Source: a virus
DNA: 64,000 nt
Virus record (IMG/VR): IMGVR_UViG_3300048838_000628
Location: 18,024 to 82,023 of that record
Direction: 5' to 3' (one strand)
A program made the translations under genes and the position numbers. The notes beneath the pieces are model-generated. The model was not told the DNA's origin and searched no databases. It was given only the letters and a program-made list of their open reading frames with translations. Positions 7,591 through 62,779 of the stretch are shown here, piece after piece (position 1 is the stretch's first letter; every line of letters starts with the position of its first letter).

Positions 7591-8218
7591 TAAGAACGGT
7601 GTGAAAAAGAAAATTGATGAAACACAATTATATCCAACACCTACGGAAATTATCACAGAAATTCTAGATGAAATATTTAGCAAATATCTTTATGATTATT
7701 CTAGAATGGGCACAGATACATTTAATATCTTAGATGCTGGTGCGTTTGATGGGCGTTGGGGCGGATATTTCCAAACATGGGTACAGGATTACTATAAAAT
7801 CAAGACGCACGCTACGTATATAGAGTTGCTTGACGAAGCTACAGTTTTAAAAGCAGGACGCTCTTATTGGGATAGAGACAAAAGTACCGTCTTGTTTGAA
7901 ACAAGTTTTCTTGATTATGCTCCAGAAGAAAAATTTAACGTAGTAATTGGGAATCCGCCTTACGGCAAAGAGTTCCCTTTATTTTGGAAAAAAGCTAAAG
8001 AATGTTTAATACCAAATGGATTAATTATGTGGCTACTGCCAACAGAATACCTGAACGGGCAATGGCGCAAAGATAACGTTAATCCATATTTAGAACATGT
8101 TTATAATCTTAGTAGGCGTATTGACTTTACGGGTAAAGGTAGTCCTAATCGAAACTATTCTTTCTTTGTTTACAACATGAGCAAAATTACCGAAGGGTAC
8201 ACTGGACACATACTATGA
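7568..8218 (+). CDS. SAM-dependent DNA adenine-N6 methyltransferase
   Basis: A 216-residue class I methyltransferase. The SAM-binding motif I (ILDAGAFDG) is near residue 53 and the catalytic NPPY is near 127 (VVIGNPPYGKEF), typical of N6-adenine enzymes. The C-terminal part (NRNYSFFVYNM) resembles bacterial Eco57I/TaqI-like folds. The start is TTG 7568 with GGAG seven bases upstream; GTG 7601 is an alternative that avoids the 23-nt overlap. No restriction partner is nearby, so it more likely protects or marks phage DNA. Confidence 0.8.
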   Translation: MTNHLLYNKNGVKKKIDETQLYPTPTEIITEILDEIFSKYLYDYSRMGTDTFNILDAGAFDGRWGGYFQTWVQDYYKIKTHATYIELLDEATVLKAGRSYWDRDKSTVLFETSFLDYAPEEKFNVVIGNPPYGKEFPLFWKKAKECLIPNGLIMWLLPTEYLNGQWRKDNVNPYLEHVYNLSRRIDFTGKGSPNRNYSFFVYNMSKITEGYTGHIL

Positions 8219-8907
8219 GATACATGGGCGGTAAATATAAAATTGCTAAAAGTCTTGTTGCTATTTTTAGCCAATCAGAATATGATACTTATATCGAGCC
8301 TTTTGCTGGTGGCATGAACGTTATCGATAAGGTTAAAGGTAAAAGAATAGCTAATGATATTAACCTTTATACTATAGCGTTATTTGATTCTGTTTCTAAT
8401 CATGAGTGGATACCGCCTGAAGATATAACAAAAGAACAATATGATTATGTGATGAATAATTATAAAGAGCTGCCGCCTAACCTAGTTGGGTATGTTCTTT
8501 CTGGTTGTTCTTTTGGCGGTAAATGGCGCGGCAGTTACGCGCATCCAAACGGTAAAAGACATTATGGAAACGAAGCAAGACGAGCCATATTAAAACAAGG
8601 ACTATTACTTGCTGGAACAGAATTTGTTTCTAAAGACTATAAAGATTTAGAAATTGGCAAAGGCAATTTAGTTTATTGTGATCCGCCTTATGCTGATACC
8701 ACTGAATATGGTATTGAAAAAGGATTTGACCACAAAGAGTTTTGGGATTGGGTACGGTTTGCTTCTTTAAACAATATCGTTTATGTAAGCGAATTAACAG
8801 CACCAGATGATTTTGAAGTTGTTTGGCAAAAAGAAATCAATCACACTTTAGATAAGAAATCAAACAAACGAAAAACTATTGAAAAATTATTTAGGTGTAA
8901 AAAGTGA
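8215..8907 (+). CDS. Dam-like (D12 class) DNA adenine-N6 methyltransferase
   Basis: A 230-residue enzyme with the D12/Dam architecture. It begins MRYMGGKYKIAK (SAM-binding; compare YMGGKS in relatives), has YIEPFAGGMNV near residue 25, NDIN near 45, and the catalytic DPPY in VYCDPPYADT near residue 156. Length fits Dam-type enzymes. ATGA overlap with the upstream methyltransferase suggests coordinated expression. Likely modifies phage DNA against host restriction; the recognition site cannot be read from sequence. Confidence 0.9.
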   Translation: MRYMGGKYKIAKSLVAIFSQSEYDTYIEPFAGGMNVIDKVKGKRIANDINLYTIALFDSVSNHEWIPPEDITKEQYDYVMNNYKELPPNLVGYVLSGCSFGGKWRGSYAHPNGKRHYGNEARRAILKQGLLLAGTEFVSKDYKDLEIGKGNLVYCDPPYADTTEYGIEKGFDHKEFWDWVRFASLNNIVYVSELTAPDDFEVVWQKEINHTLDKKSNKRKTIEKLFRCKK

Positions 8908-12379: not shown

Positions 12380-12617
12380 ATTATATATTGCCTATACAGA
12401 ATATCAACCAGAAGATAACGAAGAACATTCTTCGCGCATTATCGGTATTTTTGATACCAAAGAAGGAGCAGCCGAATGTTTGATTGTTTGGATGGATCAC
12501 ATGAGAGAGATTAATAAAAAGCACGGCGATAGAGCAGATTATTTTACTAATAAAGACAAGCCAATGATTGTTGAAGTTGAACTAAATATGCCTATCAAAT
12601 ACGGACTTATTATATGA
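12366..12617 (+). CDS. Hypothetical protein
   Basis: An 83-residue protein starting at two consecutive ATG codons. A strand-rich start (KLYIAYTEYQ) leads into a helical segment (ECLIVWMDHMREINKK). No recognised motif. The stop overlaps the GIY-YIG gene as ATGA. Confidence 0.6.
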   Translation: MMTSKLYIAYTEYQPEDNEEHSSRIIGIFDTKEGAAECLIVWMDHMREINKKHGDRADYFTNKDKPMIVEVELNMPIKYGLII

Positions 12618-13396
12618 AACCGTTTGGAATCGTTTACAGGGTTACAAACACTGTGAACGGGAAAACATATATAGGCATAACAACACGAAGTTTAAGTATA
12701 AGAAAGTCTGGACATTACAATAGAGCAAATAACGGTTCCAAAAACAAATTTCATAGAGCCTTGTTAAAACATCGAGAAGATTGTTTTGTTTGGGAAACAA
12801 TTTGCTCTTGTAATGATTTGCTGGAACTTGAAGAAAAAGAAAAATATTATATCTCGCTTTTTAAAGAAGATGAATTATATAATATAACTGAAGGCGGCAG
12901 AGTCGGTGCTTTAGGATACAAACATACAGATGAAGAAAGAAAAAGACGATCTGATAAATTAAAAACGGCTGGTGGTATTAGGCGCTCTGATAAATTAAAT
13001 AAGCCAATAGTTTGTATAAACAATAACGATGTGTTTGCTTCTATTTCTGATGCTGGAAGATTTTTTGATATATCCGATAAAAATATTGGCAAGTTGTTAA
13101 AAAGGGGATATGGAACTTTAAGAGGTCTAATGTTCAGATATGCAACAGAAAAAGAATGGGCAAATATTGACAAAGAAAAAACACAATATAACGAACAAGA
13201 ATTAAAAGAAATGAAAAAAGCTAACAGTTTAAAACCAAACGGTAGGCGAGTTAAGTGTTTAGAAGATGAACGTATATTTAAAAGCGCGTCAGAGGCGGCT
13301 AGATTTTATAAAATAAGAGCTGGCGGAATAACAAGAGTTTGTAGGGGTGAAAGAAACAAGTATTCTAATATGAGGTTTGTTTATGTGGACAACTAA
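12614..13396 (+). CDS. GIY-YIG homing endonuclease with NUMOD3 and two NUMOD1/IENR1 domains
   Basis: A 260-residue free-standing homing endonuclease. The catalytic GIY-YIG domain is at the N terminus (GIVYRVTN, GKTYIGITTRSLSIR). A NUMOD3-like DNA-binding motif follows near residue 100 (GYKHTDEERKRRSDKL). Then come two copies of a NUMOD1/IENR1-type helix-turn-helix domain (ISDAGRFFDIS... near 145; SASEAARFYKIRAGGITRVCRG near 230). Such enzymes cut intronless or endonuclease-free alleles at a related locus and spread by repair. It sits between the small gene and the dNTP pyrophosphohydrolase with ATGA and 14-nt overlaps, so it is well fitted into the operon rather than lying in an intron. Confidence 0.9.
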   Translation: MKPFGIVYRVTNTVNGKTYIGITTRSLSIRKSGHYNRANNGSKNKFHRALLKHREDCFVWETICSCNDLLELEEKEKYYISLFKEDELYNITEGGRVGALGYKHTDEERKRRSDKLKTAGGIRRSDKLNKPIVCINNNDVFASISDAGRFFDISDKNIGKLLKRGYGTLRGLMFRYATEKEWANIDKEKTQYNEQELKEMKKANSLKPNGRRVKCLEDERIFKSASEAARFYKIRAGGITRVCRGERNKYSNMRFVYVDN

Positions 13397-14315: not shown

Positions 14316-14339
14316 GGGGAGCTTGCGCTCCCCTTTTTT
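14316..14339. terminator. Bidirectional rho-independent terminator
   Basis: A perfect GGGGAGC/GCTCCCC stem (14316-14322 and 14327-14333) with a TTGC loop is flanked by T6 on the right and A6 on the left. It therefore works for both the plus-strand early operon and the minus-strand late operon, which converge here. Confidence 0.92.
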
Positions 14340-45996: not shown

Positions 45997-46643
45997 TAAA
46001 TACCGTAGCCCTTCCATTCGCTCAGTAGTTTTGTGCCTTTTGATAAATTACACCTTGGACACGATAATGCCAAATTATCTGGCCAATTTGAACCACCACG
46101 CGATAATGGTATAATATGATCTATGTGGAAGGTATCTTTTAATTTTTCATCACAATAAGCACAAATACCATTTTGTTTTAAATATAAAGTCTCTATGTCG
46201 TTTTTATTATATCGTCCATCAGCATTTCTAATTCTTGCGCGCCTGTTAACATGATAAGCTCTACAAGATTCTGGATTATTTTGACGCCAGATTTTGTTTT
46301 GAAGGCTATATAAAAACTTATTATTATGATAATTGGATTTTTTACGCGCTCGCTCTTTTAAAAGAAATTTAGGATTATTTTTTCTATATTCTCTAAATTT
46401 CTTTAAAATTTCTTCTTTATTATTTTCATATTTTTCTTTTCTTCTTTGCGCCAACTCAACAGCGTTTTCTTCTCTATATTGGCGAGCGTATTCAATCCAT
46501 TTTTCATTATATTTTTTATAAGTTTCTCTTTGCATTTTGCTTTGACATTTTTTACATCTAGGCTGTAAACGACCTTTTGTATGTAAATTAAAATATTCTC
46601 TAGTTGCCGGAAACTCTTGGCCGCATAAAGTACATTTCTTCAT
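45996..46643 (-). CDS. HNH homing endonuclease (portal-upstream copy)
   Basis: A 215-residue protein with the same layout as the copy downstream of portal: CTLCGQEFPATREYF and CKKCQSKM zinc fingers, a long Lys/Asn/Tyr-rich linker, RRARIRNADGRY, then HNH motif ICAYCDEKL, FHIDHIIPLSRGG and LSCPRCNLSKG. It overlaps the TerL stop (ATGA) and the portal start (TAATG), so insertion preserved coupling on both sides. Confidence 0.9.
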   Translation of the reverse strand: MKKCTLCGQEFPATREYFNLHTKGRLQPRCKKCQSKMQRETYKKYNEKWIEYARQYREENAVELAQRRKEKYENNKEEILKKFREYRKNNPKFLLKERARKKSNYHNNKFLYSLQNKIWRQNNPESCRAYHVNRRARIRNADGRYNKNDIETLYLKQNGICAYCDEKLKDTFHIDHIIPLSRGGSNWPDNLALSCPRCNLSKGTKLLSEWKGYGI

Positions 46644-48859
46644 GTTATCACCGGGATTTTGGTTCCAAATACACCAGTTAGTTCATGTATCGCTTCGTTG
46701 GCAATCGCAAATGCGATTACAATATCATCATTATAACCTTTTGTGCCAGCATACCTGGTTTTACCGCTAGGGGTAACGTCAATAGTAAACGCCTGTAATT
46801 GTCTAATTAGCTCTGGATCGCGTAAAGCAAATATCTTCTTTTTCTCAAATTTTAATGCAAGGTTTTGAATAATACGCGCTTTACTAGAGTTAGACGTAAC
46901 AAATGGTTGAACAGGCATTCCTTTTTGAACTCGCATAACTTCAATAACTGGATCACCAGCAGAGTTTTCTTCTGCTAGAATACTAATTGGTTTCCATTTG
47001 TTGTAGAACTTTTCTATCTCGTCAATAATTTCAAGATAGCTAAGTTTATTAACGACCATCATATCAATCATATTACCGGTCATAACATCTAAACAAACTA
47101 CTACCGTAAAGTCGTTCTTTCTAGCAAAATCAATACCAAAAACATAATCGCCGCTGTCAACCATGTCGTCACTAGGATAAGGGAGGATGCAAACATCGTT
47201 AATATTTTTAAATACCTCGCCAGTGTTGATGAGGAATTCGGCATTATATTCTTGTTCGAATACTCTCGCTGGCATTGAAATTCTAGCATTATTATACTCA
47301 TTAATGTCAAAGAAAGGTGAAATAATGCTTGGGAAGCGCCATGAGCGCATTTCATCGTTATCTGGCTTTTGACCAGCTAAAAATAGCTCGTAGATGTAAT
47401 TTCTACCATTAGGAGTGGTTAAGAAATAGGCTCTACCGCGTCTGTCAGCTAAAGTAGGACGAATATCGCTTTCCCATGAGTCGCCTGATTTGTAATAAGC
47501 AGCCTCGTCAAGAATAGCGAAATCATAGCTTCTACCACGAACAGCTTTGCTGTTTTCAGCTGACCAGAACTGTAATTCACCACCATTGTGCAGAATTATC
47601 AGTTTCTCTTGGATATTCGTGTATTTACTAAGCGGCTGTAGGGCTTCATACATTTCACGAAACACATGGTTGTACATACTATGGGTTGGTGAGAACCAAG
47701 CAGCCTTGCCAGCATCACGAATAATCGTGCGATAAGCGCATAACTTTCCTAGCTCTGTATTGTGTGTGGGGATTAAAGTCTCTCCACAGAGATACATATG
47801 GGATGGCGAATCTACGGAAATACAGCGCGTAGGCACGGTTTCAGTAGGTTCTATAGAGATTATAGTGATGTTTTTATCGGTTAATTTCTGTTTCTCTAGC
47901 TTTCTAGAGATACGAAAAACCGGCAGAGAAGTGTTAAAACCTAATCTATAGTTCTTTCCAGTACGTTTAACCTTGCCATTTGGCAAACGATAGCGTGCTG
48001 AAACCTTAGAAACGCCAAACTGGACACCTAAGCTGCGTAATAGATAAGAATACTGTTTATAAAGCCGATTAGATGTTGTTGAAAGCTCAACAGCTTTACA
48101 AGCGCTACCATCTGTGTCACATAGACCTTGTAATAAGGCAAGTCTTTGTTCTATAGAGCCATCTAAATAGATTTTGGGAATGTACTTGCGTTTAATTTTA
48201 TTCTTACGGTAATTGCCAAATTCTTTTGATGTATGCTCTAGAATTCGATAATCATAAGGACTTGTTTTCTTTTGTAAAGTGATTCCTATCTGCAAAAAAT
48301 TTTGGGTAACAGTATTTATATCTTGATCCCCTATGGTAAAGTAATTAGTTCCTACTGTTCCGTCACCAATGTGATAACCCATTAGATAAGGGTTAAGTAA
48401 AAGGTCTTTCTCTGGTAGATTTAGCGGCCTTGCTGGAACAATAGAGAGTCGTTCTGTAGACAAAAACAACTCTTTTGTTGTAAAAATTTTACCGTTAACT
48501 ACCCACTTGTGATCTTCTCCAGCTGTAATACTTTCGCCAGTAGAAAAAGTAAGTTTGTAGCAAGGATTATGAAAAATCTCTGAAACAAAAGTGATTTTAG
48601 TTGGTTGACCTAATTCGTTAAAAACATATTCACCTACAGATAATTTGCCCATTGTAGACCAATATGTTTTTCCGGTAGAAAACTTATAGCAAAGTATCTT
48701 AGTGTTTACATCAAGGTCTTTGCCAAAGCGTCTTCCGGCAATAACTACTTGAAAGCGTTTCTCGTCTAAGTAGGGTAAAAGTTGCGCAGCATGTGGCGTA
48801 TTAAGATTTAACCCACTAGATTTTTTAATAGACGAACTTAATTTTTGTATTTTAACCAT
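46640..48859 (-). CDS. terL: Terminase large subunit precursor containing an intein
   Basis: The 739-residue precursor should yield a 419-residue TerL after splicing. Exteins: AGRRFGK (residues 41-47) joined to TELGK after residue 367 gives a complete Walker A. Walker B is FAILDEAAY near 447-455, and the nuclease domain has GIDFARKNDFTVVV, LAEENSAGD and YNDDIVIAF acidic motifs. It packages DNA through the portal and cuts concatemers. The intein lies at residues 48-367. Activity of the unspliced protein is impossible because the P-loop is split. Overlaps TerS by 8 nt. Confidence 0.93.
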   Translation of the reverse strand: MVKIQKLSSSIKKSSGLNLNTPHAAQLLPYLDEKRFQVVIAGRRFGKDLDVNTKILCYKFSTGKTYWSTMGKLSVGEYVFNELGQPTKITFVSEIFHNPCYKLTFSTGESITAGEDHKWVVNGKIFTTKELFLSTERLSIVPARPLNLPEKDLLLNPYLMGYHIGDGTVGTNYFTIGDQDINTVTQNFLQIGITLQKKTSPYDYRILEHTSKEFGNYRKNKIKRKYIPKIYLDGSIEQRLALLQGLCDTDGSACKAVELSTTSNRLYKQYSYLLRSLGVQFGVSKVSARYRLPNGKVKRTGKNYRLGFNTSLPVFRISRKLEKQKLTDKNITIISIEPTETVPTRCISVDSPSHMYLCGETLIPTHNTELGKLCAYRTIIRDAGKAAWFSPTHSMYNHVFREMYEALQPLSKYTNIQEKLIILHNGGELQFWSAENSKAVRGRSYDFAILDEAAYYKSGDSWESDIRPTLADRRGRAYFLTTPNGRNYIYELFLAGQKPDNDEMRSWRFPSIISPFFDINEYNNARISMPARVFEQEYNAEFLINTGEVFKNINDVCILPYPSDDMVDSGDYVFGIDFARKNDFTVVVCLDVMTGNMIDMMVVNKLSYLEIIDEIEKFYNKWKPISILAEENSAGDPVIEVMRVQKGMPVQPFVTSNSSKARIIQNLALKFEKKKIFALRDPELIRQLQAFTIDVTPSGKTRYAGTKGYNDDIVIAFAIANEAIHELTGVFGTKIPVIT
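47759..48718 (-). mobile_element. Class 3-like intein with LAGLIDADG endonuclease in the TerL Walker A motif
   Basis: A 320-residue intein starting at Asp48 and ending at Asn367 (PTHN followed by Thr368). Block A is DLDVNTKILCYKF, block B ITAGEDHKWVV with Trp119 after the His, block F RCISVDSPSHMYLCG with Cys346, and block G IPTHNT. The absence of a nucleophile at position 1, with Trp in block B, Cys in block F and Thr as first C-extein residue, is the WCT triad of class 3 inteins. LAGLIDADG motifs are LMGYHIGDG (near 159) and LLQGLCDTDG (near 243). Confidence 0.88.
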
Positions 48860-49581: not shown

Positions 49582-49848
49582 CTAATCTAACTTACTTATT
49601 AAAAATTTACTAATAAAGTTAAGTATTTTACGAATATGCCATTTAGGTAAAGAAAATTCATTTGCTAACATATTTTCTATAGTTTCATAATCATAACCAC
49701 AAATAGCTAAATGATAATCTCTTTTATATATTTCTTTTTGCCTATTTGTTAAAGAGCTATATTTGCTATAATATTGGTTATTATATTTATTATATTTGTA
49801 TTTCTTATATATATTACTAAATGCTATATCTTCAGTTACTCTATTCAT
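49582..49848 (-). CDS. Small putative DNA-binding protein, first gene of the late operon
   Basis: An 88-residue protein from ATG 49848 with AAGGAG upstream; an upstream in-frame start at 49905 would precede the promoter -10. YSSLTNRQKEIYKRDYHLAI followed by YETIENMLANEFSLPKWHIR is compatible with a sigma-like or terminase-like helix-turn-helix. It is very AT-rich. Could be a late-gene regulator; not established. Confidence 0.55.
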   Translation of the reverse strand: MNRVTEDIAFSNIYKKYKYNKYNNQYYSKYSSLTNRQKEIYKRDYHLAICGYDYETIENMLANEFSLPKWHIRKILNFISKFLISKLD

Positions 49849-49876
49849 AATAATCTCCTTATAATGATTAGACATA

Positions 49877-49905
49877 ATGATATAATATAATCTTACTAAT
49901 GTCAA
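49877..49905 (-). promoter_or_regulatory. Late-operon promoter
   Basis: Minus strand: TTGACA (49900-49905), a 17-nt spacer, TATCAT (49877-49882), about 30 nt before the first late start codon. This is the only good promoter seen for the 35-kb structural operon. Confidence 0.75.
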
Positions 49906-49971: not shown

Positions 49972-50199
49972 ATTATATATACTAAACTATATAGTATAGA
50001 AAGTTATATGCAAGATTCTTAACCATGGTTAACTTTTATGAGAGCAAAAACATTTAGATTCCATTCGTGAATCAACTAAAAGGTACCTGGAGTCGCGAAT
50101 CGCATTTTTTGACGATGTACGCTCAAAACACGCTACAATGGCGCTGTTTCGCACGATTCGCGCATTGTGGCATGATGACACGACTCACGCTCAAATCGC

Positions 50200-50227
50200 T
50201 TGACTCTGCCTTGTATGGTGCTATGCT
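50200..50227 (+). promoter_or_regulatory. Promoter candidate for the 182-residue early gene
   Basis: TTGACT at 50200-50205, 16-nt spacer, TATGCT at 50222-50227, about 90 nt before ATG 50315. An upstream alternative is TTGACG/TACAAT at 50109-50139. Confidence 0.5.
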
Positions 50228-50314
50228 AAGGTTATCGATTAAGCGACTCGTAGTCTTAACGCACATACGCGTAAGCGAGTCGATACCGCGCATAATGCGC
50301 AGGAGTCCAGCACC

Positions 50315-50863
50315 ATGACTAAGCAGACGTTGAACCTGACAGATGCCCGCACAATCAAGCATGACCGTCCCTATAGCAATCTCGACACGAGTCTTAACGC
50401 TCGCATGTACGCGCTAGCGAGTCTTATCGCGGGCGATGCGCAGTACGCACCCACGGTAAAGACTCTCCGCCAGTTGGGGAATGTTCGCCCTGAGGATGGT
50501 CACACGTTACGCGCATGGTTTGTTCCCGTGTGGTCAGCCTGCGAGAAGCACTTGGCCAGCACAACCGTGACCATGGCAGCAGTTCGCGCTATTAACGCGC
50601 TATGCGTGAAAGCACAAGCTGCCGAAGAACTGTGGCAGGATGAGCAACGCGCTATGCGTAAGGCGCAGCGCACACAGGTTAAAGCTAAGCCTGCCAGCAA
50701 GAACAGCAAACAGGCCAAGGCTTATAATGCGCAGGTAAGCACGCAGATCAAGCCCGCAGGAAAGACTAGCGGCATGGTGACGGTTACGCTAGAAATGACC
50801 GTCGAACAATACGCGCTAATAGCGCCCATGCTGGCAGCCATGAGCGTTACGCCCAAGGCGTAA
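50315..50863 (+). CDS. Hypothetical protein, GC-rich early region
   Basis: A 182-residue Ala-rich protein with CAGGAG upstream of the ATG. The first 90 residues are helical (YALASLIAGDAQYAPTVKTL), the middle is Lys/Ala/Gln-rich and possibly disordered (KAKPASKNSKQAKAY), and the end is strand-helix (GMVTVTLEMTVEQYALIAPM). Codon use is GC-rich, unlike the AT-rich replication genes. Flanked by its own promoter and terminator, so probably strongly and early expressed. Function unknown. Confidence 0.65.
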   Translation: MTKQTLNLTDARTIKHDRPYSNLDTSLNARMYALASLIAGDAQYAPTVKTLRQLGNVRPEDGHTLRAWFVPVWSACEKHLASTTVTMAAVRAINALCVKAQAAEELWQDEQRAMRKAQRTQVKAKPASKNSKQAKAYNAQVSTQIKPAGKTSGMVTVTLEMTVEQYALIAPMLAAMSVTPKA

Positions 50864-50965
50864 GCAACACTCAACTAAGCTAAATTAAACGACAGTTCAA
50901 GCATCAGCATCCCAACGCTACAGGCAACACAGGCACAGGCTTAACGTAAGCAGTTTGAACCTAAA

Positions 50966-51003
50966 GGCACCTCGGAATCGCTGATTTCGGGGTGCTTTTT
51001 ATT
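50966..51003 (+). terminator. Rho-independent terminator
   Basis: GCACCTCGGAA and TTTCGGGGTGC pair around a short loop, followed by TTTTTATTT. It ends the transcript of the 182-residue gene. Confidence 0.88.
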
Positions 51004-51047
51004 TCCCGACGCAGCGTGTATGTACACGCACATGTAAAGGACGCAAG

Positions 51048-51152
51048 ATGGACACGATCATCAGCTGGATAGTCGGCATGACAGCGGTATTGTGGTTCGT
51101 GTGGTACGTGTTTGTGGGCATGTGGCCTGTGTACTACACGGTCACGTTCTAA
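51048..51152 (+). CDS. 34-residue membrane peptide
   Basis: ATG 51048 has AAAGGA upstream. The peptide is Trp/Val-rich and hydrophobic almost throughout (WIVGMTAVLWFVWYVFVG). A GCGTGTA/TACACGC inverted repeat (51014-51029) lies just before it. It stands alone between two hairpins, so it may be an independently expressed single-span peptide. Function unknown. Confidence 0.5.
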   Translation: MDTIISWIVGMTAVLWFVWYVFVGMWPVYYTVTF

Positions 51153-51162
51153 GCCTAGTACA

Positions 51163-51216
51163 GCGCCACTAAGGACTGATACTCTTTGGTGGCGCGATAC
51201 TGTGCATAGGGCACAG
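51163..51216 (+). other. Tandem hairpins between the membrane peptide and the 221-residue gene
   Basis: A stem of GCGCCAC with GTGGCGC (51163-51195) is followed at once by CTGTGC/GCACAG (51200-51216). Neither has a long U run. They could be the 3' end of the peptide mRNA or structured leader for the following gene. Confidence 0.5.
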
Positions 51217-51239
51217 GATAGTCAATAAGGAGCAATATC

Positions 51240-51905
51240 ATGTACGTAGCTATGTATAACAGCCAGTCCATACTAAAGGGTTCTTTCGTAGTACCCGCAC
51301 AAGATGAGCAAGCAGCAAAGAACCTTGTCGAGATCGTTCACGCCCTTTACACGGACATGTACGCAAGGTACATGAGCGAGATCGAAGACGCATGGCAAAA
51401 CGATGACCCTTATGCGCTTGAAAACATCGAAGACCGCTATAACCCGCCGGTATTTATCGCGCTCGTGAACGAGCTTACAGGCGATGCAAAGCCCGTGTGG
51501 TGTAATTGTCGCATCGAGTTCAAGCAGGGTGAGCGCGAAGGCGCGTTAGTAGTGCCTGAAACGCTAGGCTTGAATTTACAAACAGCCGTCGAAGACGGTG
51601 ATCTCAAGATGGAACGCTTTACGCTTGAACGCGTACCTGCGCCACGTTGGGTAAAGTTCGGCTGCGATGAGTATCCTGCTACCCCCGACGATTGTGAATA
51701 TATGTTCGCAGGTGAAGAATACGTGACAGTCCGCAACGGTACGCTACGTTACGTTCACATAGACATGGCCGCGCTACAGGAGATAGCGACTAGGCTTTAT
51801 AAAACACCAGACGGCAGATATCTGAAGATTTGGCGCGGTAACGCAGAAACGCCTAGCAGTATTAAGTTTGTGAGCGAAGGGTACATCAACAACAAAACCA
51901 AGTAA
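51240..51905 (+). CDS. Hypothetical protein, GC-rich early region
   Basis: A 221-residue acidic protein with AAGGAG upstream. N-terminal strand-helix (VPAQDEQAAKNLVEIVHALY); WCNCRIEFKQGE in the middle; C-terminal TPDGRYLKIWRGN. No family recognised. Followed by its own terminator. Host-like codon use suggests strong expression. Confidence 0.65.
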   Translation: MYVAMYNSQSILKGSFVVPAQDEQAAKNLVEIVHALYTDMYARYMSEIEDAWQNDDPYALENIEDRYNPPVFIALVNELTGDAKPVWCNCRIEFKQGEREGALVVPETLGLNLQTAVEDGDLKMERFTLERVPAPRWVKFGCDEYPATPDDCEYMFAGEEYVTVRNGTLRYVHIDMAALQEIATRLYKTPDGRYLKIWRGNAETPSSIKFVSEGYINNKTK

Positions 51906-51926
51906 CGATTTAATCCACCACAACCT

Positions 51927-51971
51927 AAGGGCTAGTGTTCGTACTACGGTGCGGGCATTAGCCCTTTTTTA
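51927..51971 (+). terminator. Rho-independent terminator
   Basis: AAGGGCTA pairs with TAGCCCTT around a ~24-nt loop, followed by a T6 run. It ends the 221-residue gene's transcript. Confidence 0.82.
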
Positions 51972-52004
51972 TTTCTCTATCCACGAGTAAAAGGACGGCA
52001 AATC

Positions 52005-52220
52005 ATGTTCGCACTAGAATTCGTCAGCATAATCGCATACGGGATATTCGGCATATATCCCAACTTCGCAATTGTGGATGATATATTCTACGCGGGTTGG
52101 GAAGATGGTGAAATTGAGAACTATCTAATTTACTTTCCCGAAACCCACTCACTAGGCTATTACACGCTCACTGGCGATCTTCTCGATCTGGTGGATTATA
52201 TTCGACTTGAGCAAGAATAA
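52005..52220 (+). CDS. Small acidic hypothetical protein
   Basis: A 71-residue, Tyr/Ile/Asp-rich, strongly acidic protein with AAAAGGACGG upstream. An acidic small early protein can be a nucleic-acid mimic, but there is no specific evidence. A promoter for the next gene begins seven bases after its stop. Confidence 0.55.
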   Translation: MFALEFVSIIAYGIFGIYPNFAIVDDIFYAGWEDGEIENYLIYFPETHSLGYYTLTGDLLDLVDYIRLEQE

Positions 52221-52227
52221 TAGCTGT

Positions 52228-52257
52228 TTGACCGAAAGCCCTGAACTGTGGGATAAT
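52228..52257 (+). promoter_or_regulatory. Promoter for the 68-residue gene
   Basis: TTGACC at 52228-52233, 18-nt spacer ending CTGTGG, GATAAT at 52252-52257. Same design as the promoter at 52538. Confidence 0.75.
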
Positions 52258-52282
52258 AGAGTTTGGGGCAATCAGCACCCTG

Positions 52283-52297
52283 TCGTATATCTAGCAA
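52283..52297 (+). repeat. 15-bp leader repeat, copy 1
   Basis: TCGTATATCTAGCAA, identical to 52650-52664. Both copies lie in 5' leaders, 16-21 nt before a start codon. Confidence 0.8.
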
Positions 52298-52313
52298 ACC
52301 ACAAGGATCAAAT

Positions 52314-52520
52314 ATGACGCACCCTACGAAAATGACAAACGACCACCTAGAACTTCTCGTGAAAGAATTCGGGAAGCTGCTAGAAGAATTCCCGCAGTTT
52401 GCCACCATGAAATATAGCAACACTAAGACCTACAAAAAGCGCCATCTAGAACTTAGGGCCGAACTCAAGAAAAGAAAAATGGTCGGTCGTAAGAAAAAAC
52501 AGGCGCAGGGGGAAATATAA
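52314..52520 (+). CDS. Small basic hypothetical protein
   Basis: A 68-residue protein from ATG 52314 (AAGGAT upstream); the frame is open back to 52263, but that is only six bases from the -10 box. Helical, with a strongly basic C terminus (KKRKMVGRKKKQ), so nucleic-acid or membrane binding is possible. It has its own promoter. Confidence 0.6.
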   Translation: MTHPTKMTNDHLELLVKEFGKLLEEFPQFATMKYSNTKTYKKRHLELRAELKKRKMVGRKKKQAQGEI

Positions 52521-52537
52521 GATAAATATAAGTCGGT

Positions 52538-52567
52538 TGACAGCATCGACCGAACCGTGGGATAATG
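52538..52567 (+). promoter_or_regulatory. Promoter for the 289-residue gene
   Basis: TTGACA at 52538-52543, 18-nt spacer ending CGTGG, GATAAT at 52562-52567. The leader to ATG 52686 is about 110 nt and contains the 15-bp repeat. Confidence 0.78.
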
Positions 52568-52649
52568 GGATTGTCAGTCCGATCCAGCAGTAACAAGGAG
52601 AAAATATAAGCGATAAATATATAGGCCAAGTCATAACAAGCAATAACTC

Positions 52650-52664
52650 TCGTATATCTAGCAA
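52650..52664 (+). repeat. 15-bp leader repeat, copy 2
   Basis: TCGTATATCTAGCAA in the leader of the 289-residue gene, identical to the copy at 52283-52297. Confidence 0.8.
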
Positions 52665-52685
52665 GCAAAATCAGGAGTAATAAAA

Positions 52686-53555
52686 ATGGCTACCAATCGT
52701 CGTAATAACGAACTCGTGGATGGTAAGTTTGCCAGCATCGTCATGATTGACGGCAAGTTTTACTCGCCTAAGATTGGTCAAACCGTTGAGGCGGCTAAGA
52801 CCGTCCTGATTGACCGCCTGCGTTCGTTCTGTGGTAAAGGTGACTCGAATGGGTTGCCTTACCAGGCGGGTAACATCAGCAGCCCGCTTTACATGACTTG
52901 GGCAAATCCGGAAGCAAACAACAAGGTCGGCCTGATTATTTCGCACAACGTCGATAAGGCCGGTCGCAAGATTTACACGATCAGTGGTGACTATGCTCAC
53001 CTTAAGGCAATCTTGGATGTTCACGGCCAGACTCCTCTAGCGAACATCGCTAACGGTTTGTGGCAGCGGCTTCAGGCAATCCGTTTTGTCCCCGTTGAAG
53101 GCGAGACTTACAACGCCTTTGTTACGCTGACTCTCGATCAGCTGCACAAGATTAAGCCGGTGACGACGCCTATCGTTACCGCCGCTATGAAGGACGATCC
53201 GGAACCCGTTAATCCTAAGACGGGTAAAGTTGACAGCCGGACTAAGGCACACAAAGAATGGCAGACTCGTCAAGCTGTTCGTGCAGCACAGAACCTTGGC
53301 ATCACCACCACGGTTAAGGAAACGCTGCATCGTCCCGATATGCTCAACAGTACACCGGTTATTCTGCCGTCGCAGAAAGCTGCTGGACTCAAAGCACAGA
53401 TCGCTCCTCTGCCCGCCCCGACTACCAGCAAGACTTCGGGTTTGAGCAAGAAAGACGCTTTCGGTGACTGGACGGTTCTGCACAACGAAGAACTGATCGA
53501 CAGCAATATCACGTTTGCGGTTTGGTGGGAAGCTAACAAGGCGCTGTATAGCTAA
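52686..53555 (+). CDS. Hypothetical protein, strongly expressed early candidate
   Basis: A 289-residue protein with CAGGAG upstream, a strong promoter and a strong terminator of its own. Residues 15-165 are mixed alpha/beta (FASIVMIDGKFYSPKIGQT; KVGLIISHNVDKAGRKIYTI), then comes a Lys/Thr/Pro-rich linker and a C-terminal segment ending FAVWWEANKALYS. GC-rich, optimised-looking codons. It could be a ssDNA-binding or host-takeover protein, but no motif decides this. Confidence 0.65.
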   Translation: MATNRRNNELVDGKFASIVMIDGKFYSPKIGQTVEAAKTVLIDRLRSFCGKGDSNGLPYQAGNISSPLYMTWANPEANNKVGLIISHNVDKAGRKIYTISGDYAHLKAILDVHGQTPLANIANGLWQRLQAIRFVPVEGETYNAFVTLTLDQLHKIKPVTTPIVTAAMKDDPEPVNPKTGKVDSRTKAHKEWQTRQAVRAAQNLGITTTVKETLHRPDMLNSTPVILPSQKAAGLKAQIAPLPAPTTSKTSGLSKKDAFGDWTVLHNEELIDSNITFAVWWEANKALYS

Positions 53556-53568
53556 ACACCACACTCAC

Positions 53569-53598
53569 AGAGGGGGCGCAAGTCCCCTCTATTTTTTT
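53569..53598 (+). terminator. Rho-independent terminator
   Basis: AGAGGGG/CCCCTCT stem (53569-53590) followed by ATTTTTTT. It closes the GC-rich gene block. Confidence 0.93.
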
Positions 53599-53636
53599 GC
53601 CTTTTTCCAGAGTAAAAAAACTCAAATTAGTAATTT

Positions 53637-58343: not shown

Positions 58344-58417
58344 GCCGGTGTATCCCAATGGGCAGAGGAAACTGACTTAAAATCAGTAAAGTGTGGGTTC
58401 GAGTCCCACCACCGGTA
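58344..58417 (+). tRNA. tRNA-Leu (anticodon UAA)
   Basis: Acceptor GCCGGTG/CACCGGT with discriminator A, anticodon stem ACTGA/TCAGT, loop CTTAAAA (anticodon TAA, 58378-58380), T arm GTGGG-TTCGAGT-CCCAC. CCA is not encoded. The variable loop is only 5 nt, unusual because bacterial Leu tRNAs normally carry a long variable arm. Confidence 0.88.
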
Positions 58418-58439
58418 CAAAATTTATATAGAGGATAAG

Positions 58440-58694
58440 ATGGATGGGCTAAAGAAATTAAAAGTATTTCTCATCGTTAACGCTTGCGCTTTAGAACACA
58501 ATCCTATGCTAGTTCATTTATTAATTGATAACAAAATAGAGTTCAAATTACAGGAAACTAAAGGCGAAGCAAGAGTTCTTATTTACGAAAACGAAATATA
58601 TAGTGAGTTAGAGGCGAAGGATATCGCCAAAAAAATAGTTGTTCTTGCTTGGTTAAAATCGTATCGCGTCCCTTGTCATATTACAATAATGTGA
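58440..58694 (+). CDS. Hypothetical protein, small alpha/beta type
   Basis: An 84-residue protein, GAGGATAAG before the ATG. Strand (KLKVFLIVNACAL), helix (PMLVHLLIDNKIEF), strand (RVLIYENEI). Resembles 56889 and 57233 gene products in layout. Function unknown. Confidence 0.6.
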   Translation: MDGLKKLKVFLIVNACALEHNPMLVHLLIDNKIEFKLQETKGEARVLIYENEIYSELEAKDIAKKIVVLAWLKSYRVPCHITIM

Positions 58695-58701
58695 GGATGA
58701 A

Positions 58702-58962
58702 ATGAAAAACGTATATAAAGTATACCATTTCAAGAGCGATAACACTGTTGGTATTTATACTCAAACAGCAAATGATATTGAAACAGTCGAAGAATATTTC
58801 AAAGATAGTATTGCTTACAAAGACCTTTGTGAAAAGAACGGCGGGCAACACGCTATGGTAAATTATACTAAAGATCGCATTATAATGGAATTTTTATTCC
58901 AGCAAAGTGAATATTATCCGTACAATAGAGATATTATTATTATCCAAAAATTGGAGGAATAA
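58702..58962 (+). CDS. Hypothetical protein
   Basis: An 86-residue protein with GTGAGG upstream. Begins MKNVYKVYHFKSDN, then a helix (IETVEEYFKDSIAYKDLCEK) and C-terminal strands. Slightly similar in layout to 60729-60953. Function unknown. Confidence 0.6.
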   Translation: MKNVYKVYHFKSDNTVGIYTQTANDIETVEEYFKDSIAYKDLCEKNGGQHAMVNYTKDRIIMEFLFQQSEYYPYNRDIIIIQKLEE

Positions 58963-59156
58963 TGACGCTAATTTCAATAGCCGTATTTTTAATGTTGCTC
59001 TTTCACACACTTATCGTCATAGCCTCTATCTATTCGCTCTATGAAGATTTTCAGCAGTTTAGACCAATAGAAAAAGGGTTCCTACTGTTTATTATTATTA
59101 ATATACTTTTTGTCATATTCTATTTGTTCCTATTTCGTTACATAGGATGGCAATAA
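58962..59156 (+). CDS. Two-span membrane protein
   Basis: A 64-residue protein (TAATG overlap, GGAGG upstream) with hydrophobic residues 2-27 and 40-60. Function unknown; one of a run of small membrane proteins here. Confidence 0.6.
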   Translation: MTLISIAVFLMLLFHTLIVIASIYSLYEDFQQFRPIEKGFLLFIIINILFVIFYLFLFRYIGWQ

Positions 59157-59320
59157 TGAATAAGTGGGCGATCACAGTTGTTCTTTATATCATTAATATT
59201 ATTATCGTTGGCTTCACAATTGTTTATGATATATCGGCATTGTTTGCAATTTTTGCAACCGTTTTTTGTTTGCTGTTAGTGTTTTTAGCGCATAATGGAG
59301 TTGACAATGGTAATAGATGA
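59156..59320 (+). CDS. Two-span membrane protein
   Basis: A 54-residue protein (TAATG overlap) that is hydrophobic almost throughout (ITVVLYIINIIIVGFTIV; LFAIFATVFCLLLVFLA). Function unknown. Confidence 0.5.
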   Translation: MNKWAITVVLYIINIIIVGFTIVYDISALFAIFATVFCLLLVFLAHNGVDNGNR

Positions 59321-59579
59321 AAATGTTATTCGTATTGTTAAAGCAACATATCGTCAACGTGTTAATAGTTTCTTTTTATATCGCGATTTAATCGTTAGTT
59401 TTTCGTCACCAAAAGTCGAGTTCCCGTATAAATTAATTGTTAACAATAAAAATTATTATACATTCCCGCCATCAAGCACATTTCTTCAGGACGGCAAAAA
59501 TTATCAACTAACACTAAGTTTTAATCGTTCAATGGTTCCGACTATTATTTCTATTGAGGAGATTGTTGATGAACGTTAG
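59307..59579 (+). CDS. Hypothetical protein
   Basis: About 90 residues from ATG 59307, six bases after GGAG; an ATG at 59295 is also in frame. Beta-rich (VIRIVKATYRQ; YKLIVNNKNYYTF). Function unknown. Confidence 0.58.
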   Translation: MVIDENVIRIVKATYRQRVNSFFLYRDLIVSFSSPKVEFPYKLIVNNKNYYTFPPSSTFLQDGKNYQLTLSFNRSMVPTIISIEEIVDER

Positions 59580-59895
59580 TTATGTTAATCCAGAAGAACT
59601 TCTTCGGCTTTATTCAATTGATAAAAACCCTTTGCTTGTAATTAATATTTGGTCAGGAAACGAAGAAATAGTTTATGAAACGTTTTGCGAAATTGGTAAT
59701 TTGTTAGAAATGGTATTTCCTTTTGAAGAAGATACTGACAAGGCTATGACCGGTTATATTATTCTTGAATTTAATAATCTTGAATCCGCAGTTGACGCAT
59801 TTGATAAATTAGATAATCAACTCTACTTAGTTGATGCACTTGTGCTTGATAACGGTGTTGTTGTTAAGCAAAGTATTGATGACGGGTTTGAATAA
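59569..59895 (+). CDS. Hypothetical acidic protein
   Basis: A 108-residue protein from ATG 59569 (GAGGAG upstream). TGYIILEFNNLESAVDAFDK resembles the outline of an RRM-like strand-helix, but no RNP motif is complete. Function unknown. Confidence 0.58.
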   Translation: MNVSYVNPEELLRLYSIDKNPLLVINIWSGNEEIVYETFCEIGNLLEMVFPFEEDTDKAMTGYIILEFNNLESAVDAFDKLDNQLYLVDALVLDNGVVVKQSIDDGFE

Positions 59896-60119
59896 TGGAT
59901 GAAAATACGACAGGATACACGGCTGTTGGCTGTTTTATTGTTATAATTTTTATCGTTGTGGCGGTTTTCTTTTGCAGTATCGGATATTTTCTTGTAACTA
60001 ATTTCCAGTACAATCTATCAAATGTAGATTATTGTAGAGAAAACTTTGCCGATACAGTTATCAGTGAAGTTCCTGTTAAATGCTATCCTATTTTTAACAT
60101 TCAAGCACCAGTGAGGTAG
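59895..60119 (+). CDS. Single-span membrane protein, PVxCY family
   Basis: A 74-residue protein (TAATG overlap). Membrane helix at residues 12-35, then an exterior-looking tail with CRENFADTVISEVPVKCY. The same C...TI/V...PVxCY pattern is found in 60375-60605. Two conserved Cys could form a disulphide if the tail is outside the membrane. Confidence 0.6.
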   Translation: MDENTTGYTAVGCFIVIIFIVVAVFFCSIGYFLVTNFQYNLSNVDYCRENFADTVISEVPVKCYPIFNIQAPVR

Positions 60120-60121
60120 TT

Positions 60122-60403
60122 ATGTATTTGAGTAGCAAAATTCACGATAAGAACGACTCATATACACGGATGTTGATTATCAAAGACTATACTGGGTTTA
60201 GTTATGCCTATATGTCCTATCGTAGCTATTTGCGCTGTTGGATTATTGAGCGTAGAGATATCGAGCATCTACTTCCTGCCAATCTTCTTCCGTATCGTTT
60301 CGCTACTTACACAGAATGTCTTAACCAGCTCTTGTCTATTATGGTCTATATGAATCAAAACAAGGAGAAATTTTATGAAAGCACTAAGCGATTTTCTTAC
60401 TGA
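60122..60403 (+). CDS. Hypothetical protein
   Basis: A 93-residue Tyr/Leu/Arg-rich protein with GAGG upstream. Mostly helical second half. Overlaps the next gene by 29 nt. Function unknown. Confidence 0.58.
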   Translation: MYLSSKIHDKNDSYTRMLIIKDYTGFSYAYMSYRSYLRCWIIERRDIEHLLPANLLPYRFATYTECLNQLLSIMVYMNQNKEKFYESTKRFSY

Positions 60404-60605
60404 ACATTTTCCCAATATTCTTTTAATTCTTTTTGTCGCCTCATGGATTTTGCTTCTTATTATTATTGCAAGCGATTATAGTTCACCAGAAATGAAACAG
60501 AAAAAAGCATTTGAAACTCAAATCTGTGAAGAATACAGAAACAGAACAATTGATAAACTTCCCGTTGGCTGTTATGATTATTATGGAGTTAGCAATGACC
60601 AGTAG
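60375..60605 (+). CDS. Single-span membrane protein, PVxCY family
   Basis: A 76-residue protein, AAGGAG upstream. Membrane helix at about residues 14-33, then a charged stretch and CEEYRNRTIDKLPVGCYDYYG, matching the tail of the 59895 gene product. Probable paralogue. Confidence 0.6.
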   Translation: MKALSDFLTEHFPNILLILFVASWILLLIIIASDYSSPEMKQKKAFETQICEEYRNRTIDKLPVGCYDYYGVSNDQ

Positions 60606-60732
60606 TATCTTTCTTATATTCTTTTCTCTCGTATGTCTGTTTGCTGCACAATTTAATCCTACTTACTTTTGGTTGTTTCTTATCTCTGCTATTGCTTTCT
60701 TTATTGTTAGCATGAGAAAGGTAAACGAATGA
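60595..60732 (+). CDS. 45-residue membrane protein
   Basis: From ATG 60595 with GGAG upstream; an upstream in-frame ATG (60511) lies inside the previous gene. Two hydrophobic segments cover most of the protein (IFLIFFSLVCLFAA; FWLFLISAIAFFIVS). Function unknown. Confidence 0.5.
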   Translation: MTSSIFLIFFSLVCLFAAQFNPTYFWLFLISAIAFFIVSMRKVNE

Positions 60733-60953
60733 AACGCACATATCGCGTGTGCTATCCAGCTAAAGAAGCAAATAAAGAAAAAGCGAGAACAAAGATAGAA
60801 AATACTTTTAACTCCTATGAGAGCTTAAAATATTTGGGTGTTAAAGATGGGCACCATGAATTTCTCATGGAGACGACTGTAGCTAATCATTATGGTATAT
60901 ATAACATGAATAATTCAAGAGATTACGTACAACTAAAAAGCTTTAGTGCTTGA
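60729..60953 (+). CDS. Hypothetical protein
   Basis: A 74-residue protein (ATGA overlap), strand-helix-strand, with KDGHHEFLMETT in the middle. Its TGA stop lies in the next promoter's -35 box, as at 57965. Confidence 0.55.
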   Translation: MKRTYRVCYPAKEANKEKARTKIENTFNSYESLKYLGVKDGHHEFLMETTVANHYGIYNMNNSRDYVQLKSFSA

Positions 60954-60978
60954 CAGCAAACTCGTCCTGTGGTACACT
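60950..60978 (+). promoter_or_regulatory. Sigma70-like promoter
   Basis: TTGACA at 60950-60955, 17-nt spacer ending TGTGG, TACACT at 60973-60978, 35 nt before ATG 61013. It drives the transcript carrying the Thr, Gln and Ile tRNAs. Confidence 0.8.
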
Positions 60979-61012
60979 GGTGTTGTAGTTCGTTCACAAG
61001 AAAGAGGATATA

Positions 61013-61261
61013 ATGAATTTACATACCTATACCGATGAAGAAATTGAGAATATTCTGAATGAAAATGAAGAACTTGTTGCTATTTTTGCTCTACCAGAAG
61101 ATGAGCTAAAACATACCGATCACTTTGTTAGCAGAAAGACGGCTAAATTTATGGCGCTAAAATCTGTTAGAGACTATTTGTACAAACGTCACAAATTGAT
61201 TTGTTTCGCTTATCCTATGTCTTATAAGGATTCTACAATCCGTTTATCAGACGGGGCTTAA
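61013..61261 (+). CDS. Hypothetical protein, paralogue of 61715
   Basis: An 82-residue protein, AAAGAGG upstream. SRKTAKFMALKSVRDYLYKRH followed by a strand aligns in layout with SEELFNLLSEQVVKDYLNEKH in the 61715 product. Function unknown. Confidence 0.6.
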   Translation: MNLHTYTDEEIENILNENEELVAIFALPEDELKHTDHFVSRKTAKFMALKSVRDYLYKRHKLICFAYPMSYKDSTIRLSDGA

Positions 61262-61340
61262 ATCTAACCATGGGTTGTATGTTATCCCATGACTTAGGGT
61301 ATATGATGAAAAAAACATAACCATTAATTAGTTTGTAGTG

Positions 61341-61370
61341 TTTTCCAGCAGGTTAAAATCTGTTGGAAAA
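61341..61370 (+). other. Hairpin directly before tRNA-Thr
   Basis: An 11-bp stem TTTTCCAGCAG/CTGTTGGAAAA (one G-U) with an 8-nt loop ends one base before the tRNA acceptor. It may guide tRNA 5' processing or insulate the tRNA from the upstream mRNA. No U run follows. Confidence 0.6.
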
Positions 61371-61371
61371 T

Positions 61372-61443
61372 GCCATCGTAGTTTAATTGGCAGAACAACT
61401 GTTTTGTGAATAGTTGGTACGGGTTCAAATCCTGTCGATGGCT
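61372..61443 (+). tRNA. tRNA-Thr (anticodon UGU)
   Basis: Acceptor GCCATCG/CGATGGC with discriminator T; D stem GTTT/GAAC; anticodon stem ACTGT/ATAGT with loop TTTGTGA (anticodon TGT, 61405-61407); T arm ACGGG-TTCAAAT-CCTGT. It reads ACA. Confidence 0.85.
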
Positions 61444-61478
61444 TTAAGGTTAATTTAAGGTTAAAAGGAAATAAAAAA

Positions 61479-61715
61479 ATGAACGAGATTACATTCGCAG
61501 ACTTACATAACAAGTGTTATAACTATACTTTAAGTAAAGATAATTTTGATAACGGTACGTTTCTTGAAATCGATGAAAAAGAGGAAGGAACGCTGTGCAA
61601 TTTATTTGTTGTCGGCGAAGTAATTGATTTTCTTGGAATAAAAATGCGCTGTACACAAAATTATGTTTGTACTGATTTATATAAGCAAACAAATATTTAT
61701 TTGGAGGTGATCTGA
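61479..61715 (+). CDS. Hypothetical acidic protein
   Basis: A 78-residue protein, AAAAGGAA upstream of the ATG. Starts TFADLHNKCYNYTLSKDN-like and strand-rich after; four Cys. Overlaps the next ATG by one base. Function unknown. Confidence 0.58.
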   Translation: MNEITFADLHNKCYNYTLSKDNFDNGTFLEIDEKEEGTLCNLFVVGEVIDFLGIKMRCTQNYVCTDLYKQTNIYLEVI

Positions 61716-62002
61716 TGCCGCTTGTAGTGAACCGAAACTGGAAAGAAGATTTTATTCAAAAAGTAGAGAATAACGTCGAACTTCAAAAAATTGTTTCAGG
61801 CAGACCTTTTCGTAAAGATGGGCACGGAATAAGCGAAGAGCTTTTTAATCTGTTATCAGAACAGGTTGTAAAAGATTATCTAAACGAAAAACATGGCCTA
61901 GATATTGAAGTAGATATTCGTTGGGCACAAACACGTGAAATTATTGGATATAGGCTGAAAATCAGAGATTTTCAAGAGTTAAATAAGTTAAAGAGAGATT
62001 GA
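61715..62002 (+). CDS. Hypothetical protein, paralogue of 61013
   Basis: A 95-residue protein with GGAGGTG upstream. Helix SEQVVKDYLNEKHGL followed by strands (IEVDIRWAQT) mirrors the 61013 product. Ends just before the tRNA-Gln gene. Function unknown. Confidence 0.6.
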   Translation: MPLVVNRNWKEDFIQKVENNVELQKIVSGRPFRKDGHGISEELFNLLSEQVVKDYLNEKHGLDIEVDIRWAQTREIIGYRLKIRDFQELNKLKRD

Positions 62003-62007
62003 TTACT

Positions 62008-62079
62008 AACTCTGTGGTGTAATGGCTAACATTCTTGCCTTTGAAGCAAGTGATTCTGGTTCGAGTCCAGACAGGGTTG
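62008..62079 (+). tRNA. tRNA-Gln (anticodon UUG)
   Basis: Acceptor AACTCTG/CAGGGTT, discriminator G; anticodon stem CTTGC/GCAAG with loop CTTTGAA (anticodon TTG, 62041-62043); T loop TTCGAGT. It reads CAA. Confidence 0.88.
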
Positions 62080-62083
62080 CTAA

Positions 62084-62120
62084 GGGGCTGTAGCTCAATG
62101 GCAGAGTACGGTGTAAAAGA
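62084..62120 (+). pseudogene. Decayed tRNA, 5' half only
   Basis: GGGGCTGTAGCTCAATGGCA and the following GAGT form a normal tRNA acceptor 5' strand, positions 8-9 and D arm. The anticodon arm, T arm and acceptor 3' strand are missing before the next tRNA starts at 62136. A tRNA remnant left by deletion or recombination within the cluster. Confidence 0.65.
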
Positions 62121-62135
62121 GTTCTAGTTGTTTAA

Positions 62136-62208
62136 GCGGGCATGGTGTAACGGTCAAGCACAAACGTCTTATATACGTTTAGTTCCAGTTCAATTCTGGA
62201 TGCCCGTA
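62136..62208 (+). tRNA. tRNA-Ile (anticodon UAU)
   Basis: Acceptor GCGGGCA/TGCCCGT (first pair G-U), D stem GTGT/GCAC, anticodon stem AACGT/ACGTT with loop CTTATAT (anticodon TAT, 62170-62172), T arm TCCAG-TTCAATT-CTGGA. It reads the rare Ile codon AUA directly. Confidence 0.83.
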
Positions 62209-62230: not shown

Positions 62231-62779
62231 ATGAAAATTTGCTTAAATTGCGGTAAAGAAATTGGTAGTAAATGGAACTCTGTATTTTGTTCTAAAGATT
62301 GCTATTATAAATTTATGAAAAAAGATAATGATAGCAAAACTTGCATAAATTGCGGTATAAAAACCGATAAAAAGTTTTGTACGAAAAAGTGTTATAACGA
62401 ATTTATTAAAAATTACAAACTGAAATTATACTGTAAAAATTGTAACAAGCAATTATTAGGGCGTCGAATAACAAGTTTTTGCGACAGAAATTGTTATAAA
62501 AACTATTATAAAGAAAAAATAAACACTTTTTTTACAAAAAATTCTAAACATAATAGAGGCCACTTAAAAGACAAAATTATAGAATTTAAACTTCTAAATT
62601 ATTCATGTGAAGCTTGCGGTAATAATGGTGAATGGAATGGCAAGCCGTTAGTTTTGCAACTAGACCATGTTAACGGCAATAACACAGATAATAGATTGGA
62701 AAATTTAAGATTCCTTTGTCCAAATTGTCATACTCAGACAGATACTTTTGTTGGTAAAAATAGAAGAAAAAAGAAATAA
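62231..62779 (+). CDS. HNH endonuclease with repeated zinc fingers
   Basis: A 182-residue protein with CAGGTG before the ATG. Three N-terminal C-x2-C...C-x3-C knuckles (CLNCGKEI..FCSKDCY; CINCGIKTDKKFCTKKCY; CKNCNKQL..FCDRNCY) precede an HNH core (YSCEACGNNG, LQLDHVNGNNTDNRLENL, FLCPNCHTQT). It is a free-standing homing endonuclease next to the tRNA cluster, unrelated in layout to the two portal-flanking HNH genes. Confidence 0.9.
   Translation: MKICLNCGKEIGSKWNSVFCSKDCYYKFMKKDNDSKTCINCGIKTDKKFCTKKCYNEFIKNYKLKLYCKNCNKQLLGRRITSFCDRNCYKNYYKEKINTFFTKNSKHNRGHLKDKIIEFKLLNYSCEACGNNGEWNGKPLVLQLDHVNGNNTDNRLENLRFLCPNCHTQTDTFVGKNRRKKK

Follow-up and report, generated by a model that had tools for sequence, protein, structure and literature searches.

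The six genes between positions 50315 and 53555 of the analysed window (64,000 nt, positions 18024-82023 of a virus record of 82,023 bases) most likely constitute the pre-early region of their phage, judging from the organization of the sequence. We give even odds to the fuller reading, in which a lytic phage has its pre-early region here, the sigma70 polymerase of the host transcribes the block, and a GANTC control region lies upstream. A host-takeover function of the block products is plausible by analogy. The preliminary description of this DNA had proposed an early host-control module. Early expression is supported, because the block contains the first genes of the rightward arm, which starts at the only divergent switch, because of the class of its promoters, and because of synteny with the pre-early genes of the Thermus phage P23-45; action on the host stands as a candidate function. 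Several findings count against the pre-early reading: the block proteins have no relatives and gave no usable fold, only three proteins of the phage have significant homologues in P74-26, the block shares its promoters with other right-arm units, and the codon use of its 289-aa gene matches that of structural genes. The most surprising feature is a dense array of GANTC sites at the start of the block, which was overlooked in the first reading and gives a stronger signal than those first reported.

Genome layout

The first and last 127 bases of the record are identical, and the genome is therefore probably complete, at about 81,896 bp, and assembled as a circle. These identical ends suggest circular assembly only and not the physical ends of the genome. 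The genes fall into two arms. The leftward arm runs from 49.5 to 14.3 kb and carries a TerS candidate, an intein-bearing TerL, virion genes and the tape measure. The rightward arm runs from 50.3 kb to the end of the record and on through its left 18 kb to 14.3 kb, and it comprises small genes, tRNAs, an exonuclease, an AAA protein, a CobT-like protein, DnaE polymerase, DnaB, primase, methylases, ThyX and dUTPase. Cumulative GC skew is lowest at 50471 and peaks at 14321, where strong terminators on both strands (14316-14333) close the arms. Taken together, the arm layout, the skew extremes and the two-strand terminators place the block at the single divergent switch of the genome. The 15-kb stretch around it had no nucleotide match in the phage collection.

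Several other elements were recorded along the arms. The TerL gene (46640-48859, - strand) carries, in frame, an intein-like insert that includes a LAGLIDADG-type domain, and homing-type endonuclease genes of the GIY-YIG (12614-13396, + strand) and HNH (62231-62779, + strand) types are present. Four tRNA genes within 58344-62208 (+ strand), Leu-TAA, Thr-TGT, Gln-TTG and Ile-TAT, read A-ending codons.

Anatomy of the six-gene block

All six ORFs lie on the + strand, and each is preceded by a Shine-Dalgarno-like sequence. They encode a basic orphan protein of 182 aa (50315-50863, pI 9.9), a 34-aa membrane-type peptide (51048-51152), an acidic orphan protein of 221 aa (51240-51905, pI 4.7), a strongly acidic protein of 71 aa (52005-52220, pI 4.1, with 13 D/E and 1 K/R), a basic protein of 68 aa (52314-52520, pI 10.1) and a basic orphan protein of 289 aa (52686-53555). 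Four of these products, the 182-, 221-, 71- and 68-aa proteins, are strongly charged for their size. The five unknown proteins and the membrane peptide described at the outset are thus all present, the peptide having a peak hydropathy of 1.97 over 19 residues. The claim that short units here differ from overlapping operons elsewhere was likewise borne out: intergenic gaps measure 87-184 nt inside the block, whereas both arms have a median of -4 nt, with 64% of neighbouring genes touching or overlapping.

Upstream of the block, on the - strand, lies a small ORF of 87 aa (49582-49845, the ATG having been chosen within an ORF at 49582-49905) with a possible helix-turn-helix by eye, a weak match to phrog_14446 (E=9e-4), the Shine-Dalgarno sequence AAGGAG and a promoter candidate, TTGACA-17-TATCAT, at 49905.

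Composition and codon use

The earlier observation of a GC-rich block of short units is real and was confirmed in part. GC content is 45-52% in 1-kb windows of the block against 38% for the genome, a richness that is not unique to it, as about 50-52% is also reached in the stretches of structural genes that span 38.0-42.6 kb and 32.6-34.1 kb. When codon use was scored against this GC-rich structural set, the 289-aa gene gave +0.165 per codon and the other five genes gave -0.141 to +0.026; these five are closer to the GC-rich structural set than to the AT-rich sets, and the fit is not good. Since only the 289-aa gene clearly resembles the GC-rich structural genes, high expression is likely for this gene alone, and the host-like codon use first ascribed to the block was not confirmed. 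Several 6-bp palindromes are strongly avoided across the genome, as are CCNGG (24 vs 91 expected) and GGNCC (25 vs 60), which suggests restriction pressure from the host.

The codon use of the 289-aa gene also bears on a competing explanation, in which the block is early and works for the DNA or virion of the phage itself: its 289-aa product would be an abundant protein associated with DNA or internal to the virion, and the remaining products would be replication or packaging accessories for the neighbouring origin/packaging region. The three basic proteins of the block (pI 9.4-10.1) would suit such a role, as would its position beside TerS and TerL, the GC-skew minimum and the AT-rich stretch. 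We consider this explanation somewhat unlikely, as the phage has a separate SSB-like gene outside the block (L004:12190-13038) and the block lies on the strand opposite the virion arm, with promoters of the early arm.

Promoters and terminators

Strong promoters or terminators had been ascribed to the units of the block. The terminators are clear: strong hairpins on the + strand lie at 50967-51004, 51927-51976 and 53569-53600. These three, among about 8 strong terminators in the genome, fall within 3.55 kb, with a p of about 0.004 that is rough, the scan and threshold having been picked after looking at the data. As for the promoters, those of the phage early family are found at 52228-52257 and 52537-52566 (11 of 12), both on the + strand, and each is followed by the leader TCGTATATCTAGCAA, which is common to these two units and has no other exact copy in the genome. 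The family, with the consensus TTGACA-N17/18-TGTGgKAYAATrG, also serves other right-arm units and is not particular to the block. A genome scan gave eight sites scoring at least 17, at 52228, 52537, 57965, 60950, -15434, -11240, -9763 and 4976 (negative positions lie left of the window; the site at 4976 falls within coding sequence), compared with ten shuffled genomes that had 0-2 sites scoring 16.5 or more and none exceeding 17, an excess that is inflated in that the pattern was drawn from the block and its neighbours and partly fitted to the sites found. All eight sites share the + strand and belong to the rightward arm, and the pattern was fitted to neither strand nor arm.

The first half of the block has weaker promoter candidates only, including one of moderate score for the 182-aa gene (50200-50227, + strand, TTGACT-16-TATGCT with a TG extension). 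The architecture typical of host-takeover regions, with short units that have their own promoters, ribosome-binding sites and terminators, is therefore present, with clear promoters confined to the second half.

This division could be explained if the first half (50.05-52.0 kb) consisted of moron-like cassettes with a promoter and terminator of their own, recently acquired and inserted where the arms meet, so that within the block the second half alone belonged to the early regulon of the phage. There is a sharp step in composition near 50045, from 22% to 47% GC, the 182- and 221-aa genes differ in codon choice from the 289-aa gene, and neither of the two has an early-family promoter upstream. 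We nevertheless regard recent acquisition as improbable: no relative was found in phages or sampled genomes (plasmids were searched with one gene), and CCNGG and GGNCC are as scarce in the first half as they are genome-wide, which favours long residence.

The signature motif of RNA polymerases was not found in the ORFs of the phage, where the DxDxD pattern is confined to the DnaE active site and two other acidic stretches, in small ORFs. Host RNA polymerase therefore probably starts transcription, and the absence of a signature appears fitting for the sigma70-type promoters of this phage.

A dense array of GANTC sites

Sixteen GANTC sites lie between 49933 and 50465, sharing only the 5-bp core. 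The array extends 151 bp into the 182-aa gene and sits at the global GC-skew minimum (50471), beside the most AT-rich 500-bp stretch of the genome (49494-50040, 22% GC). From the rest of the genome, 0.95 sites would be expected in this interval, and dinucleotide shuffles of the region gave a mean of 1.8 and a maximum of 7 in 2000. Elsewhere in the genome GANTC is depleted (134 vs 203 expected, z = -4.9). Among 32 short palindromes, with counts above 3 considered, it forms the largest local cluster for its frequency (16.5-fold), followed by a cluster of CGCG within a GC-rich structural gene (12.9-fold). In 204 other loci, covering 1.9 Mb of viral DNA, no 530-bp span holds more than 9 GANTC sites. 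A 10.5-bp phasing of the sites was not convincing, no cluster of DnaA boxes was found at the array, and a 15-base array repeat gave only scattered, chance-like matches to viral contigs.

We read this array, from its sequence features, as a putative methylation-type control or origin region. A different explanation is that a protein binds here, the array being an iteron, operator or pac site in which GANTC is incidental. A few sites do share longer flanks (TGCTAAAGACTC twice, GAGTCTTWWC three times), and the array adjoins TerS, next to which pac sites are often located. Across all 16 sites, however, no column outside the 5-bp core exceeds 0.43 bit, and this low information in the flanks favours the 5-bp GANTC site itself, leaving the protein-binding explanation fairly unlikely.

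CcrM methylates GANTC in most Alphaproteobacteria; the motif is scarce in their genomes as a whole and enriched intergenically (PMC3973325). GANTC is found above expectation in repABC loci (PMC11514494, PMC6090056), and GANTC methylases are often encoded by alphaproteobacterial phages (PMC5537653, PMC7139368). Like the phage with its putative control region, repABC replicons of Alphaproteobacteria have unusually many GANTC sites at a replication or regulatory region (origins and promoters) in an otherwise GANTC-poor genome (PMC6090056, PMC11514494, PMC3973325). The phage array has more sites, 16 in 533 bp, than the repABC cases, for which 3 per element or 6 in 250 bp are described. In contrast to these systems, no GcrA, ParB or PF01555 methylase was found in the phage, and its host may not be alphaproteobacterial. 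Directly after the helicase and primase genes come two neighbouring genes for adenine methylases of 216 and 230 aa (7568-8907, + strand), which have NPPY and DPPY motifs and show no similarity to the GANTC methylase of phiLM21. The host could not be pinned down from the methylases or the best phage matches, neither of which is specific.

Relatives of the block proteins and of the phage

The statement that no block protein matches a known family held in Pfam, PHROGs, NCBIfam and PADLOC, where nothing usable was found, and the same was true of three block proteins compared with PDB sequences. No relatives were found for the block proteins in phages (tblastn) or viral contigs, for two of them in genome contigs, or for one in plasmids, and no match was obtained when proteins of the block and of the remaining window (TerL excluded) were compared by tblastn with 80 TerL-related loci and a few phage loci. 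Two single-sequence AlphaFold models had pLDDT values of 34 and 40 and were unusable for fold search. An SSB identity was considered for the 289-aa protein and rejected, the SSB-like gene lying elsewhere and the C-terminus not being acidic.

Other genes do connect the phage to the P23-45 type of Thermus phages, which give the best match to ThyX in the phage collection and are among the best matches to TerL, Halorubrum and Tunturiibacter phages ranking alongside. Only three proteins matched those of P74-26 significantly: ThyX (p22, 5e-42), TerL (p84, 5e-31) and AAA (p49, 3e-8). The gene order helicase/primase/ThyX/dUTPase is partly kept with the P23-45 type. A CobS/CobT-like pair of AAA and VWA genes (L004:8349-11849, + strand) is arranged as p49/p48 of P74-26, the VWA/CobT gene adjoining the AAA gene in both phages with a weak score of its own. 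The block proteins have no sequence similarity to P74-26 proteins. Judged by its gene content, the phage is a distant relative of P23-45 and P74-26 and not a member of the Oshimavirus lineage, since it shows no signature of a phage-encoded two-barrel RNA polymerase (DxDxD).

The P23-45 genome has its ends at the junction of the terminase arm with the pre-early genes gp77 and gp76. The genes adjoining its left end are pre-early, probably enter first and are read by an RNA polymerase fused to the tape measure (PMC10770324), and gp76 inhibits the host RNA polymerase (PMC7064336). The pre-early region of P23-45 and P74-26 (gp76, gp77) likewise consists of small orphan-type genes, first on the early arm and at the boundary of the terminase arm, and P23-45 carries its left terminal repeat at the place that matches the block. 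The two differ in that the pre-early genes of P23-45 use the virion RNA polymerase, whereas the block promoters are sigma70-like.

Discussion

We propose that the block opens the rightward arm of early and replication genes, at the divergent switch where it meets the leftward arm of packaging and virion genes, and that the block probably lies near the genome end that would enter the cell first. The host RNA polymerase, carrying its main sigma factor, would transcribe the block at once from strong extended -10 promoters, and the hairpin terminators would insulate each short unit, providing a separate dose of every product. At least some of the small charged products may bind host machinery such as RNA polymerase, the 71-aa acidic protein being the most likely inhibitor. 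The 289-aa product would be made in large amounts, and it is just as likely to be a plentiful component of the virion or a DNA-associated protein. The upstream AT-rich stretch and the 16 GANTC sites would form a control region, most likely an origin or switch that responds to methylation. Of this picture, the sequence itself displays the gene anatomy, the promoter family, the terminators, the codon use, the syntenic position and the GANTC array, from which the early timing, the host targets, the order of entry and the methylation are inferred.

A more specific version, in which the dense array is a divergent control or origin region and the methylation state of its DNA times the pre-early block, the packaging arm or replication, is one that we put forward tentatively and consider rather doubtful. 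Such timing may represent a GANTC counterpart of Dam/GATC origin control, with incoming, hemimethylated and newly copied DNA as the states read by host or phage factors.

The host-takeover module of the Bacillus phage SPO1 resembles the block in consisting mostly of small genes, in promoters and ribosome-binding sites of the highly expressed type, and in its several short operons (PMC6873191). It differs in comprising 26 genes within a known terminal redundancy, for which early expression and growth inhibition were measured, whereas the block has six genes.

If the proposed reading is true, the block would add six candidates for host inhibitors, all undescribed, from a lineage of phages without close sequenced relatives. 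The GANTC array predicts that GANTC is methylated by the host or by the phage, and the early switch or origin of this phage may be wired to adenine methylation.
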